64,000 bases of DNA, taken from Methanogenium organophilum. GTDB lineage: Archaea; Halobacteriota; Methanomicrobia; Methanomicrobiales; Methanomicrobiaceae. The translations under genes were made by a program, and so were the position numbers. Shown in pieces: positions 58,722 to 64,000 of the stretch. The notes beneath the pieces were generated by a model. It worked only from the letters and a program-made list of their open reading frames with translations. It was not told where the DNA came from and did no database searches. The stretch is from positions 1,116,001 through 1,180,000 of the forward strand of contig NZ_CP113361.1 of the NCBI RefSeq assembly GCF_026684035.1, read 5' to 3'. Numbering within the stretch: position 1 is the first letter of the stretch; each line of letters starts with the position of its first letter.

Positions 58722-59831
58722 TTATTTCTTGCGCCATCTGCCTGCTGCCGAACACCCTCCCCCAAAGAGCAGGCCGCCCACCGTTGCCAGGAGAGGGGCA
58801 GGGGACCGGGTGGGTGTAGGAATCCCGCCGGCAGGTGTGCCCTCTACCACTGTCCCCGTGGGCACTTCCGGAGAAGAAGAGGTCTGGATAACATCAGGGC
58901 ACGCAGATACGTCCGGTGCACCGGCACATCCTCTTTCAAAACAATAGATACGGGTGCCATCCGTGCTCATCACATAAGTACCTGCGTCATCCATTGCAAA
59001 GGAAATCGGGGTAACTGCCTCCTCAATTCTGCCGACATGGGTGCCGTCCCGGTCCATAAACCGGATGTCCTGCATGTCCGCAATAGCACCAATGGCACCG
59101 TCTGCCGTGACTGCAACACCTCCCGAATGCGGCGCAGTCCCTGTCCAGAGAAGGCTGCCTGCCCGGGAGAGAAGTATCGCCGCACCGTCTTCGGATACCG
59201 CGGCAATGGTCCGGCCACCTTCTGCCATCGCAAGCGATGTAACCGGCTGGCTGGAGAGACGATAGGTCCAGCGTTCCTCCCCGGTATCCGAGTAGAACAC
59301 CACATTCCCGGTATCGGTACCGCCTGCGATATACGTCCCCTCCGGGCTGATGGCCACCGATACGAGATCGTCCCCTGTGTCAGTGGTCTCCAGCAAGACC
59401 CCTGTGGCATTATAAAGACGGAGCGTCTCGTCCTCAAACACAGCTGCAATCCGGCTGCCGTCAGCATTCACCGCAACTCCATTGACAAAATATCTGGACG
59501 GCACGGTTGCGAGGACGGTGCCGTTTTTGTGCCGAACAAGCAAACCATCGCCGCCCGCCACCAGGATATCCCCATCACCGGAGAGGGCAACAGAACGGTA
59601 TCTCCCGTCCGGACTACGCCACAGCTCCCTCCCTGCCGGTGTCAGGAGGATGACACCACCATCACCAGTTATGGCACGAAAGGCTCCGTCACCGGAGACG
59701 GCCACATCCTGGATGTGAAAACCCGGCTGTTCAGAACTGACACAAACCCATTCTTCCGCCGCTGCGGTTGGGAATGAAAGCAGGAGAGAGAAAATGAGGA
59801 GAGAAATAAGGGTCGGAAACCGTCCGATCAC
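58722..59831 (-). CDS. Secreted beta-propeller protein with C-terminal anchor
   Basis: A 369-residue protein. The GTG start overlaps the upstream stop (GTGA) and is preceded by AGGAGGCAGGGA, which is decisive against the longer frame. A signal peptide (about 1-25) is followed by at least seven blades with the recurring VAVSGDG / VAISPEG / VAVTADG turns of WD40/PQQ-like propellers. A Thr/Pro stalk (GTPAGGIPTPTRSP) leads to a hydrophobic segment and a basic tail, as in sorted archaeal surface proteins. Last gene of the operon. Confidence 0.8.
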   Translation of the reverse strand: MIGRFPTLISLLIFSLLLSFPTAAAEEWVCVSSEQPGFHIQDVAVSGDGAFRAITGDGGVILLTPAGRELWRSPDGRYRSVALSGDGDILVAGGDGLLVRHKNGTVLATVPSRYFVNGVAVNADGSRIAAVFEDETLRLYNATGVLLETTDTGDDLVSVAISPEGTYIAGGTDTGNVVFYSDTGEERWTYRLSSQPVTSLAMAEGGRTIAAVSEDGAAILLSRAGSLLWTGTAPHSGGVAVTADGAIGAIADMQDIRFMDRDGTHVGRIEEAVTPISFAMDDAGTYVMSTDGTRIYCFERGCAGAPDVSACPDVIQTSSSPEVPTGTVVEGTPAGGIPTPTRSPAPLLATVGGLLFGGGCSAAGRWRKK

Positions 59832-61807
59832 TCTCCCTGCCTCCTGAGACAGTATCCTGCTGCCGCAAAAGCGGCCACCGCACCAATGAACGGGGCGGGG
59901 CTCTGTGTTGCCACCGGTTGAGTCTGACTCTCCTCCGGGAAACACTCCGGGTGGATATCGTGTGCCACGATCTCAAGCGCCTCCACAATACGCGGACCGC
60001 CACGGTCAATAATATCAGAATCTACCAGGTAGACCCGGCCCTCTTTGACTGCAGAGAGACCCTGGAATCGTGGTTCATCGAGGACATAGCGGTAGAGGAT
60101 GTCATACTGTTCACCACCCATACCGGCACCGGAGTTCGCGATGATAACGTCCGGATCGGTGACAATAAACTCCTCCATGCTCACGATCTCCCACCCCTGA
60201 ACAGTGGGGAAGGCATTGGTGCCACCCGCCATCTCAAACATCTCGTCCTGGAATGATCCAGTGCCGCTGACCCAGATCGGATCGTTCCAGACCATATGGA
60301 CGACAGAGGGCGTCGTGTCTGCAGAGGCAACTGCCGTTTCCACAGCGTCAATACAAGCCTGCATCTCGCTGACCACGACTGCAGCCTCGTCATCTGCCCA
60401 GGTCGCTTCACCGACGAGCCGGATATTGTCCTGCACATCGCCGATGGAAGCGGGGTTGAGGGAGATGACGGTGAGGCCCAGATTGTCCAAGTGCTCGATC
60501 ACCTCAGCCGTATTGCCAAAGGCCGCCACCACGAGATCGGGTTTTGCCTGTAGCACCTTCTCGATGTTTACCGAACTGTAGCCGCCGACCTTCTCGGCAG
60601 CGAGCGCCTCTTCAGGGTAGTTGCAGTAATCGGTCACCCCGACCACCTTGTCACCAAGACCCAGTGCATAGAGGATCTCGGTGTTGGCCGGCGCCAGTGA
60701 GACGATCCGCTGGGGCGGTGCCGGGATGTAGACCTCCTTTCCAAAGTCATCGGTGACTGTCCGGCCGTCTGCATCGGGAACCGCCGTCGTTGCCGATGCT
60801 GTCGCTTGTGTCGCCGTCACAACCGGTGTTGATAACGGTGTGGGTTGTGGGACCGGGACGGCATTCTGGTCCGGAATGATCGGGTAGGACCGGCCGGTCA
60901 GGGCAGGGATAGCGGTTGCGGTCATCTTGCACGGCACATCGGCGAGTACCGATGTCCACTTGAAATATCCCTCTTCCGTCTGGAAGGAAAGGAGGTGGGA
61001 GACCGGGGTGTTCCCGGTCGCAGTTGTCCAGGTGAGAGGGTCCTCGCCTGCGGCCACAAGCGCTTGGATAACCCAGGAGTCAGAGGCAGAGTTCGTCGCA
61101 CTCGAGCCGCCGTAGTTGAACCCGCCGTCCGCCTGCTGCTGTGCCTTCAGAAAGGCGATGGCATCGCGAATGACCGGGTCATTCTGCGGGGTATCGCCAG
61201 CGATGAGTGCCTCGATGGCAGAGGCGGTATCATCACAGTCGCTCTCTGCGCCTACCGCCCAGCCAAAGCCACCGTCTTCGTTCTGCTGGGTTTTGAGCCA
61301 GGCAACCCCTTTCGAGGTGTCCTCACCCGCAGCGGAGAGGGCCATGATGGCCCAGTTTGTGGTGTAGATATGCTCTCCATAGCGACCGTCTTCCCGCTGC
61401 TTCTTCTGCAGGAATGCAACAAAGTCATGCCCCTCGAAGTTGCGGGGGTCGTCCCCTGCGGCCACAACGGTGAGGATCAGTTTTGCGGTCTCCGATGTCC
61501 CGTCGATGGCAAGCGTCTCCTCTGCAAGGGTGTGCAGGTAGTCACTGGCGGAAGCGCCACCCGATGACCACTGGTCCGGATCGCCGCCTGACGCTACAAT
61601 CGCAAGGATTGCCCAGGTGGAGAGTGACGGAGTGGACTCTTTTCCGTCTTCAGCAAACCCGCCGTCTGCTTGCTGGCAGGAGGCAAGGTAGGCCAGTGCA
61701 CTACCCACTTCATTGTTATCAGCTGTGAGCGGATATGCCGCAGCCGTTGCCACAAAGCACGGAACAATGAGAAGAATTAAAAAAAAAAGATGTGTTTTTG
61801 TGTTCAT
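59828..61807 (-). CDS. Surface protein: squalene-cyclase-like repeats fused to a BtuF-like binding domain
   Basis: About 659 residues. A signal peptide is followed at about 30-310 by alpha/alpha repeats with QQADGGF, QREDGRYG, QNEDGGFGW and QQADGGFNYGG, the QxxDGG signature of prenyltransferase/squalene-cyclase barrels. A Pro/Thr linker leads to a helical-backbone periplasmic-binding domain (about 355-620) with PQRIVSLAPANTEILYALG, VTDYCNYPEEAL and KPDLVVAA, as in cobalamin or ferric-siderophore receptors. A QTQPVATQSPAPF stalk, hydrophobic segment and basic tail end the protein. The first in-frame codon (TTG at 61831) is less likely than the ATG used. Confidence 0.85.
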   Translation of the reverse strand: MNTKTHLFFLILLIVPCFVATAAAYPLTADNNEVGSALAYLASCQQADGGFAEDGKESTPSLSTWAILAIVASGGDPDQWSSGGASASDYLHTLAEETLAIDGTSETAKLILTVVAAGDDPRNFEGHDFVAFLQKKQREDGRYGEHIYTTNWAIMALSAAGEDTSKGVAWLKTQQNEDGGFGWAVGAESDCDDTASAIEALIAGDTPQNDPVIRDAIAFLKAQQQADGGFNYGGSSATNSASDSWVIQALVAAGEDPLTWTTATGNTPVSHLLSFQTEEGYFKWTSVLADVPCKMTATAIPALTGRSYPIIPDQNAVPVPQPTPLSTPVVTATQATASATTAVPDADGRTVTDDFGKEVYIPAPPQRIVSLAPANTEILYALGLGDKVVGVTDYCNYPEEALAAEKVGGYSSVNIEKVLQAKPDLVVAAFGNTAEVIEHLDNLGLTVISLNPASIGDVQDNIRLVGEATWADDEAAVVVSEMQACIDAVETAVASADTTPSVVHMVWNDPIWVSGTGSFQDEMFEMAGGTNAFPTVQGWEIVSMEEFIVTDPDVIIANSGAGMGGEQYDILYRYVLDEPRFQGLSAVKEGRVYLVDSDIIDRGGPRIVEALEIVAHDIHPECFPEESQTQPVATQSPAPFIGAVAAFAAAGYCLRRQGE

Positions 61808-61831
61808 TTTGTTCAACCAGTCCTGTTTCAA

Positions 61832-63454
61832 TTATCTTTTTTTGTTCCGGTATATGCTGGTTACTCCAAGAAGACCGGCTGCTGCTGCACAGATGACACT
61901 AAGGGGTGTCCCTGACTCGGTTGGTGCAGGAGTCGCTGTCTGTTCAGCAGGCGCGGATGTTGGGGATGCTGTACCGGGGTCAACAGGTGCATCGGTGACG
62001 GAAACAAAGAGGAATGACGAGAGTCCTTCAGCAGAACCTGCCTCGAGGATCATCTTTCCGTCAGCGGTAGTACCCACGGAGCGCAGGGTCAACACCTCTG
62101 CGGTTCCGTCATCCAGGATATGCACGAGCCGCAGGGCAGAGAGGCCGCCTGCCTGTGTTATGCATGTCGGGTCTGCCGTGATGCGGATGGTCACATCGCC
62201 AACATCCACCCCATTTTCAAGGCCGCGTTTATCAACGTCCATCATCCAGCCAGCGGTGTCGACTGCCATGCCTTCAGTATCAAGTGCTGCGTTTGAAGCA
62301 CTCAGCATTGCTGCCGGAACATCCGAAAGACCGGAGAGAGGGGTCACAACCACATCAATATCTGCGTCCATCGGAACCGTCATGAGGGAGACAACGAGGC
62401 CAATTTCGGGAGTTGCCCCGTTTGCACAGGTCACCGTAACCGGTGTGGTCTCGACGGTGACATCAGCGATCTCCCCTGAGATTACCCCGCTCTTGTCGGT
62501 GAAATCAGTAAAGCGGAGCTTTAAAACAACATCATCACGGGTGATGAGCATCGTGTTTCCGTCAAATGTGATCTCATCGCCGGCGGACGTTGCCATGGGG
62601 ACATTGACCGTCAGGTACATCCGACCCTCACTTAAACTGAGGTCAGATCCCGGCGGGAGAGAGAGCGGATAGGAGACAGCATCTGCCGTTACACCAGAGC
62701 CCGTTTCGGTTTCTCCGGTTTCAGCGGATGAACCACCGGAAGCAGGGGCACTGCTTGTCTCCACCTTGTAATAAAATGACTTCGGTGACTGTTCGGGTGT
62801 CTGGCTCATCGACTCGCTGTAGTACCAGATCACCTCGTCACCGGTTGAAACCGGTTCGTTATCAGCAGTCACTCCTGGCGAAATGCCATTCACCTGGTAC
62901 ATCCAGCCGGCCAAGTCTTTGTTGGGTGTCCCGTCCACTTCAATAACAAAGAGACCGCCGTCCCACTTGTCGCTTACCTTGAAACTGATGCCTGCTTTCT
63001 TCAGGACCCCAAGGGCGCTTTGCCATGAAACAGGATAGGTTTCATCGGAGTTGTCAGCGATAACATTGAATGTTCCCGTTGGCAGGATGACGGACTTCCA
63101 GACGATTGACGGGGTGTCCCCGCCGCCGCCTCCACCGCCAGGTGAGGGTGTGGGGGTAGGCGCAGTGATCGTAATACTCTGTGGGGCGGAAATCTCTCCG
63201 GTGACTGGATCAGTCGCGGAGAAGGTGACCACTCCATCTGCCGGCGGAATAAACTTCACCGTCGTTCCATGGGCAAAGATTGGTGTGCCACCGTTATATT
63301 GAAAGGCGACAGTCCCTTCCATATCGAGCGTAACTGTCACCGGTTGACCCCCCCCATCCTGAGTGACACTCAGGACGCTGATCGCGGCAGCAGGCGCCGC
63401 CGTACAGACGAGGAGGGCGAGGATGACTATACAGATTTCTACAGCACGGTGCAT
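61832..63454 (-). CDS. Secreted DUF4430 protein with C-terminal anchor
   Basis: A 540-residue protein with a signal peptide (about 1-24), a short Ig-like domain, a Pro/Gly linker, then DUF4430 (about 120-210). DUF4430 is recognised by GWMYQVNGISPGVTADNEPV followed by GDEVIWYYS. A long beta-rich region follows (230-500), then a Thr/Pro stalk, a hydrophobic segment and the tail YRNKKR. DUF4430 is the fold of the C-terminal domain of animal transcobalamin and intrinsic factor. The gene overlaps the previous one by 16 bases and abuts the next. Confidence 0.82.
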   Translation of the reverse strand: MHRAVEICIVILALLVCTAAPAAAISVLSVTQDGGGQPVTVTLDMEGTVAFQYNGGTPIFAHGTTVKFIPPADGVVTFSATDPVTGEISAPQSITITAPTPTPSPGGGGGGGDTPSIVWKSVILPTGTFNVIADNSDETYPVSWQSALGVLKKAGISFKVSDKWDGGLFVIEVDGTPNKDLAGWMYQVNGISPGVTADNEPVSTGDEVIWYYSESMSQTPEQSPKSFYYKVETSSAPASGGSSAETGETETGSGVTADAVSYPLSLPPGSDLSLSEGRMYLTVNVPMATSAGDEITFDGNTMLITRDDVVLKLRFTDFTDKSGVISGEIADVTVETTPVTVTCANGATPEIGLVVSLMTVPMDADIDVVVTPLSGLSDVPAAMLSASNAALDTEGMAVDTAGWMMDVDKRGLENGVDVGDVTIRITADPTCITQAGGLSALRLVHILDDGTAEVLTLRSVGTTADGKMILEAGSAEGLSSFLFVSVTDAPVDPGTASPTSAPAEQTATPAPTESGTPLSVICAAAAGLLGVTSIYRNKKR

Positions 63455-64000
63455 ACGATTCCCTCAGAGGTGACCGGCTTAGTATATGGGAATGTGTCGA
63501 AGGTGTACACCGCCGCAAAGAGTTCATATTCACCGGCAGGGGTGTTCAGGGGTACCTGTACATACACTGGAATACCGGTCTTTTCTGTTGCTGCTTCTAA
63601 TTCTACAGTGGCAAGTCCTGACAGACTGTTTCCTTCGTCATCAACACCGGAGACATCGATCACATACCATCCCGGAGATGTCTTCGTCACGTTCAGGCGT
63701 GCAAGGAATGAACTGCCCGGAGAAACTTCAGTATCTGCAATGGTGAAGACACCAATATCATCTTCAGGCACAGTCACGTGTACGGTCACGAGGTTGGGGA
63801 CACCGGTTGTTTCAGCTGGAAGAACGTCGCCCCACCCGGAGTACCAGAATGAGAAGGTGTCACCGTCACGGGCGACTGCATCAAGCCCAATGCCGGAGGC
63901 AACACCGTTGTCGAACTGCTGCCAATAATAACCGGTAACAGGGTCATACCCCATATCTCCGAGGAGATTTAACGAAGAGCCCCATGTCCCGGCAGAGGTA
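63439..64000 (-). CDS. Exported DUF4430-containing protein (N-terminus outside the window)
   Basis: The frame runs off the right edge. The visible 186 residues begin TSAGTWGSSLNLLGDM and contain GYYWQQFDNGVASGIGLDAV followed by DGDTFSFWYSGWG, matching the end of a DUF4430 domain. A beta-rich domain of about 110 residues follows, with no C-terminal anchor. The stop overlaps the next start by 16 bases, so they share an operon. Further genes, possibly an ABC transporter, may lie beyond the edge. Confidence 0.72.
   Translation of the reverse strand, partial: TSAGTWGSSLNLLGDMGYDPVTGYYWQQFDNGVASGIGLDAVARDGDTFSFWYSGWGDVLPAETTGVPNLVTVHVTVPEDDIGVFTIADTEVSPGSSFLARLNVTKTSPGWYVIDVSGVDDEGNSLSGLATVELEAATEKTGIPVYVQVPLNTPAGEYELFAAVYTFDTFPYTKPVTSEGIVCTVL

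Follow-up and report, generated by a model that had tools for sequence, protein, structure and literature searches.

The window (the whole 64,000-nucleotide stretch of DNA analysed, from a complete Methanogenium-type genome of 2.65 Mb) contains, on its minus strand, an uninterrupted reading frame for a two-domain protein, flanked by genes for β-propeller and SLBB/DUF4430 proteins (Table 1). Translation from the ATG at 61807 yields 659 residues, and from the TTG at 61831, 667; by sequence comparison, the former start agrees with the signal peptide and with the N-termini of homologues. From N to C terminus, the protein comprises a signal peptide, an α6/α6 toroid, a Thr/Pro linker, a BtuF-type domain, and a membrane anchor, with the low-complexity linker of ~30 residues setting the two large domains apart. 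Orthologues in other Methanogenium are 80-85% identical. The initial annotation had placed a barrel and a periplasmic-binding protein on one surface-anchored chain, and this anatomy holds: Pfam domains lie at both ends of a single open frame (SQHop_cyclase_C/Prenyltrans and Peripla_BP_2), and the sequence itself shows a signal peptide and, at the C terminus, a hydrophobic anchor. The anchor reads as a degenerate PGF-CTERM signal, with SPAPF in Methanogenium vs. SPGF in Methanofollis; that of one orthologue (L010) gives a weak match to TIGR04126 PGF_CTERM (E 1.8e-4, under cut-off).

Table 1. Features of the toroid-BtuF locus, in window positions
Feature	Position	Strand	Basis or remark
Toroid-BtuF fusion gene	59828..61807	-	ATG start; TTG alternative at 61831 (59828-61831); Pfam
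N-terminal signal peptide of fusion	61736..61807	-	Sequence MNTKTHLFFLILLIVPCFVATAAA; hydrophobicity of the protein peaks here
α6/α6 toroid domain	60857..61735	-	Pfam SQHop_cyclase_C/Prenyltrans; AlphaFold2; Foldseek
DCDDT motif, residues 198-202, N-end of fourth inner helix	61226..61240	-	Alignments
Thr/Pro/Ala-rich linker	60761..60856	-	Directly visible in sequence
BtuF-type substrate-binding domain	59912..60760	-	Peripla_BP_2; NCBIfam BtuF PRK03379; BtuF structures
C-terminal membrane anchor, PGF-CTERM-like, degenerate in Methanogenium	59831..59890	-	Sequence
SLBB/DUF4430 protein, predicted toroid partner	61832..63454	-	Pfam DUF4430 7.8e-10, over cut-off
SLBB domain of DUF4430 protein	62765..63103	-	hmmsearch with SLBB profile, residues 118-230
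PQQ-type β-propeller + SLBB protein, 3' part	63439..64000	-	Gene extends to ~65331, beyond the window
WD40-type β-propeller surface protein, next downstream gene	58722..59831	-	Pfam WD40 1.2e-11; start approximate

The C-terminal domain matches Pfam Peripla_BP_2 (PF01497; residues 376-606, E 1.9e-39) and NF038402 over their cut-offs, the latter upholding the earlier description of a helical-backbone binding domain. It also matches the NCBIfam BtuF model PRK03379 (4e-32), at 111 bits under the equivalog cut-off of 234. Among solved homologues, 4m7o, whose entry names an iron-binding protein, ranks first, ahead of BtuF of Vibrio cholerae (5ysc, 1e-31) in second place and that of Escherichia coli (1.3e-22) lower down. 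As for the closest free-standing BtuF relatives, one (L016) adjoins CbiZ and another (L015) lies beside a stretch of what we read as cobamide genes. In three loci, the fusion is accompanied by another BtuF gene that stands alone (L132:5924-6964, L134:3510-4631, and L133:7712-8719); since both forms share one locus there, the fused BtuF may serve as a capture station supplying the free one.

In the N-terminal part, the general Pfam toroid models pass in three stretches each (SQHop_cyclase_C, 7e-15; Prenyltrans, 9e-13), and AlphaFold2 returns a confident α6/α6 fold (pLDDT 94, pTM 0.92), in keeping with the barrel first proposed. The accompanying count of at least four QxxDGG-type repeats stands if degenerate copies are admitted, i.e., three strict copies (residues 53, 183, and 232) plus QREDGR at 145 and QTEEGY at 284, and falls to three on the strict pattern; when the N-terminal 330 residues were shuffled 20,000 times, more than one strict copy never arose. 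Invariant polar residues (YTTxW, DxDDT, and GSSxSNxAS) cluster at the N-ends of the inner helices, as judged from the alignment and the AlphaFold2 model. The D-x-D-D-T motif is invariant in 21 aligned toroids and aligns with the catalytic DxDD of drimenyl diphosphate synthase (7xq4). Three divergent SLBB-linked toroids instead carry D-x-D-T, which by-eye alignment matches to V-D-T in both intrinsic factor (within N-V-D-T-G-A) and transcobalamin.

Structural searches with the toroid place terpene cyclases first (E 2e-8), with squalene-hopene cyclase (SHC), drimenyl diphosphate synthase, and the type II cyclase MstE (target of ~350 residues) at the top, and also recover prenyltransferases and transcobalamin. 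The latter (7qbg_C) ranks 50th (E 6.7e-6), and its TMq of 0.58 sits within the 0.56-0.68 of the cyclases, so that fold alone does not decide between the two. In sequence, the toroid scores higher to terpene cyclases than to the animal α domain: HMMER against the PDB provided no link to the latter, and hhalign a weak one (probability 11%, score 29.5 vs. a shuffled maximum of 18.8). The SHC and oxidosqualene equivalog models reach only 33-46 bits on the fusion, far under their cut-offs of 322-851.

The gene directly 5' of the fusion encodes the sole above-threshold DUF4430 protein of the genome, which thus adjoins the sole toroid gene. Animal B12 carriers end C-terminally in DUF4430 (PMC4350170), a domain that is an SLBB domain (PMC1796856), and that of the archaeal partner corresponds to this C-terminal half of intrinsic factor and transcobalamin. 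In hhalign, a profile built from 42 archaeal SLBB domains aligned with the intrinsic factor/haptocorrin/transcobalamin β domain at a score of 41.3 (probability 91.7%, E 7.8e-7), compared to a maximum of 16.3 among 100 column-shuffled control profiles. The propeller-SLBB gene immediately upstream of the DUF4430 gene (L004:3439-5331; PQQ_2 4.9e-39, SLBB 5e-10) supplies the second SLBB domain of the locus. In some species, its propeller protein carries two to several SLBB copies (L008:4044-6419, L131:9269-13297, and L134:4865-8641), suggestive, at the level of sequence, of several capture sites. On the 3' side of the fusion, a WD40-type propeller gene is found in most Methanomicrobiales loci.

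The toroid is present in 51 of 199 Methanomicrobiales genomes (10 of 38 genera), nearly always within a frame of fusion length. A survey of retrieved loci for this exact architecture returned at least 37 distinct toroid-BtuF genes in Methanomicrobiales from independent genomes, complete single-contig ones included. An SLBB gene lies directly 5' on the same strand in 34 of the 35 fusion loci with sufficient upstream DNA, with a 4-base overlap in 10 cases; in the exception (L133), a propeller-SLBB gene lies directly 3' of the fusion. An artefact of annotation or of assembly, the latter having been raised with the initial annotation, is excluded for practical purposes by the recurrence of the fusion in 37 distinct genes and by the fixed SLBB neighbour, and nothing was found in its favour.

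The boundary between fused and separate domains also shifts. In Archaeoglobi-type genomes (Geoglobus L013 and L014, and relatives), a single chain of ~730-820 residues carries both SLBB and toroid. A separate BtuF gene directly follows 10 of the 12 distinct chains of this kind (that of L137 being read as two frames); it is one gene away in L138, and none was found in the DNA read for L136. In L120 and L121, SLBB, toroid, and BtuF are all separate genes in unchanged order. We regard these three cuts of one SLBB-toroid-BtuF order as strong evidence, of the Rosetta-stone type, that the domains would function together, precisely because the same order is split in three different ways. Bacterial loci, sampled through a scan for the BtuF pattern only, gave no toroid or SLBB match. 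AlphaFold2 modelling of an Archaeoglobi SLBB-toroid chain (pTM 0.56) did not confidently dock the SLBB domain on the toroid and gave no useful pose, and transcobalamin was absent from the 50 best Foldseek matches of that model.

Beside the fusion, the operon encodes a transporter of BtuC + BtuD type. The permease has BtuC as its best NCBIfam match (3.7e-104, 349 bits vs. 223 for the next non-BtuC model) and the ATPase a corrinoid ABC transporter ATPase (1e-106, 357 bits vs. 251 for the next), both under their equivalog cut-offs. Corrinoid genes recur in relatives: CbiZ (adenosylcobinamide amidohydrolase) is encoded between BtuD and the propeller-SLBB genes in L124, L126, and L137; CbiB adjoins the propeller gene in L138; BtuR lies within ~1.3 kb in L131; and MtrA is in the neighbourhood in L128. 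In the present genome, CbiZ is encoded elsewhere, outside the fusion operon, and CbiD is also encoded, from which the organism probably makes its own cobamides; with both genes in the genome, scavenging would supplement de novo synthesis. The BtuD-type ATPase has a C-terminal domain of ~160 residues without a Pfam match (L004:5465-5940; window-equivalent about 65465-65940, beyond the window); it keeps its position across these operons, and the corrinoid-ATPase model PRK09536 extends over part of it.

We consider it likely that the fusion acts at the cell surface as receptor for the import of corrinoids (vitamin B12-type cofactors), in a system consisting of a toroid/SLBB clamp, a tethered BtuF, and BtuCD; of these elements, the ligand, the clamp, and the handover are those that we infer. 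The toroid and the SLBB protein of the adjacent gene would together form a transcobalamin-like clamp, catching cobamide at the cell surface. BtuF, on its flexible linker to the toroid, would then take the ligand and dock on the BtuC/BtuD of the same operon. There is precedent for a clamp from separate parts, as transcobalamin taken apart into its α and β domains shows: either one binds cobalamin by itself, and binding brings the two together (PMC11107200). Capture by one part and handover to the other, as initially suggested, is thereby retained as the likely logic; the "cyclase-like" label is probably the wrong frame for the toroid, which, like that of animal transcobalamin, goes together with an SLBB domain, here encoded next door, and not with terpene chemistry. 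Finely balanced, in our estimation, is the broader proposition of a covalent B12 relay, in which a cobamide clamped by toroid and SLBB on the archaeal surface would pass along a single chain to the tethered BtuF; toroid, SLBB, and BtuF would then be interchangeable modules of one machine, two of the three being used by animal transcobalamin and intrinsic factor. Counting against the corrinoid reading are the weak hhalign result between toroid and α domain beside the higher scores to terpene cyclases, the undocked Archaeoglobi model and its lack of transcobalamin among the 50 best Foldseek matches, the location of CbiZ outside the operon, and the presence of CbiD.

The same capture-import machine could instead serve another ligand, such as a tetrapyrrole or metal complex (haem, F430 fragments, a siderophore, or F420-0). 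Haem and siderophore receptors belong to the class III binding-protein family, the IsdE and F420-0 models also match the BtuF domain (both under their cut-offs), and a 2007 analysis raised the binding of another metabolite by archaeal SLBB proteins (PMC1796856), which likewise counts against a corrinoid. We nonetheless hold this to be improbable, given that the highest-scoring models for iron, haem, and F420 trail the BtuC and corrinoid-ATPase models by >100 bits, that CbiZ and CbiB are linked in relatives, and that the SLBB domain matches the β domain of B12 carriers.

Equally improbable, to our minds, is that the toroid is a docking or scaffold module tying BtuF to the SLBB and propeller proteins without binding a ligand of its own. 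Toroids do act as docking modules, the transcobalamin α domain alone binds CD320 (PMC4947154), and the several surface proteins encoded in the operon could assemble; however, the invariant YTTxW, DxDDT, and GSSxSNxAS residues lie at the inner-helix N-ends, i.e., the cobalamin-contact side in animal carriers. There, the corrin ring is bound by a TNYYQ motif (PMC4350170), which by-eye alignment places in the third inner helix at the position of the archaeal VYTTxW.

We give very little credence to an active class II terpene cyclase, the outcome named at the start as refuting a relay. A catalytic-type DxDD is indeed present, invariant and aligned with that of drimenyl diphosphate synthase, the best structural matches are cyclases, and the ~350-residue MstE target indicates that a second large domain may be dispensable for such an enzyme. 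Yet the protein is predicted to be secreted and surface anchored, 37 + 12 distinct genes have the toroid fused to or linked with BtuF and SLBB, BtuCD is encoded in the operon and CbiZ in those of relatives, divergent SLBB-linked members have DxDT in place of DxDD, and every cyclase equivalog model falls far under its cut-off; the motif, then, is not decisive. Based on the predicted secretion, anchoring, BtuF fusion, and gene context, we argue that DxDD is an inherited motif that would serve ligand contact, if anything, rather than cyclisation. The archaeal toroid has its fold, QxxDGG repeats, and DxDD in common with SHC, drimenyl diphosphate synthase, and MstE as class II terpene cyclases, but differs in its predicted secretion and in lacking a cyclase gene context.

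Under the preferred reading of corrinoid capture, a close parallel is that of animal transcobalamin, intrinsic factor, and haptocorrin (PF01122 + a DUF4430-type β domain), which like the archaeal system are secreted and combine a toroid with an SLBB β-grasp domain, the SLBB domains being alignable as profiles. The archaeal system differs in that toroid and SLBB are encoded by separate adjoining genes, that the toroid is covalently joined to BtuF and retains QxxDGG repeats and DxDD, and that one-chain SLBB-toroid proteins are confined to Archaeoglobi-type genomes, where SLBB comes first. The fusion would thus work like a transcobalamin joined to BtuF, yet its toroid fails the sequence test for the animal family: a Pfam search found no PF01122 match in it, the fold alone being the same, and no SLBB domain lies on its chain.

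Secreted proteins with the same two domains, SLBB and toroid, were predicted to be B12 scavengers by Burroughs et al. in 2007 (PMC1796856), with euryarchaeal and propeller-linked members noted; bacterial members were tied there to CbiO/CbiQ, not BtuCDF, and the text makes no mention of a fusion to BtuF or to an ABC-transporter binding protein. With the BtuF-BtuCD importers of E. coli, V. cholerae, and haloarchaea, the archaeal operon has the BtuF domain and BtuC/BtuD-type genes in common, whereas its BtuF makes up the C-terminal portion of a two-domain chain that is anchored at the surface and comes with capture modules. Surface capture has another counterpart in Bacteroides, where BtuG is a β-propeller; propellers are thus found in both systems, as compared by description, the archaeal side being without an outer membrane or TonB system. 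The BtuG/BtuH lipoproteins capture B12 at the surface ahead of the importer (PMC6143338), to which we liken the predicted archaeal capture. No description of a toroid-BtuF fusion or of the boundary shift was found in the literature searched, most subscription papers being beyond its reach, in agreement with the initial remark that no protein with this role had been described.

The domain fusion links transcobalamin-type B12 binders with the BtuCDF importer, gives a testable function to an unstudied prokaryotic group (DUF4430 + "squalene-cyclase-like" toroids), and bears on the origin of animal B12 carriers. For methanogens, which need cobamides in the pathway to methane, it also suggests scavenging through dedicated surface machinery, though they probably make their own. 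Further genes were seen around such operons: (i) a xylose-isomerase-like TIM-barrel gene (PF01261) recurs near the corrinoid operons of L127, L128, L129, L132, L133, and L134 (e.g., L134:11780-12532), and (ii) an apparent coenzyme M biosynthesis gene (comDE-like) with a DUF39-like gene lies directly upstream of btuC (L004:7775-10291), a pair that, as named from sequence reading, occurs in Methanogenium and one other genus (L135).
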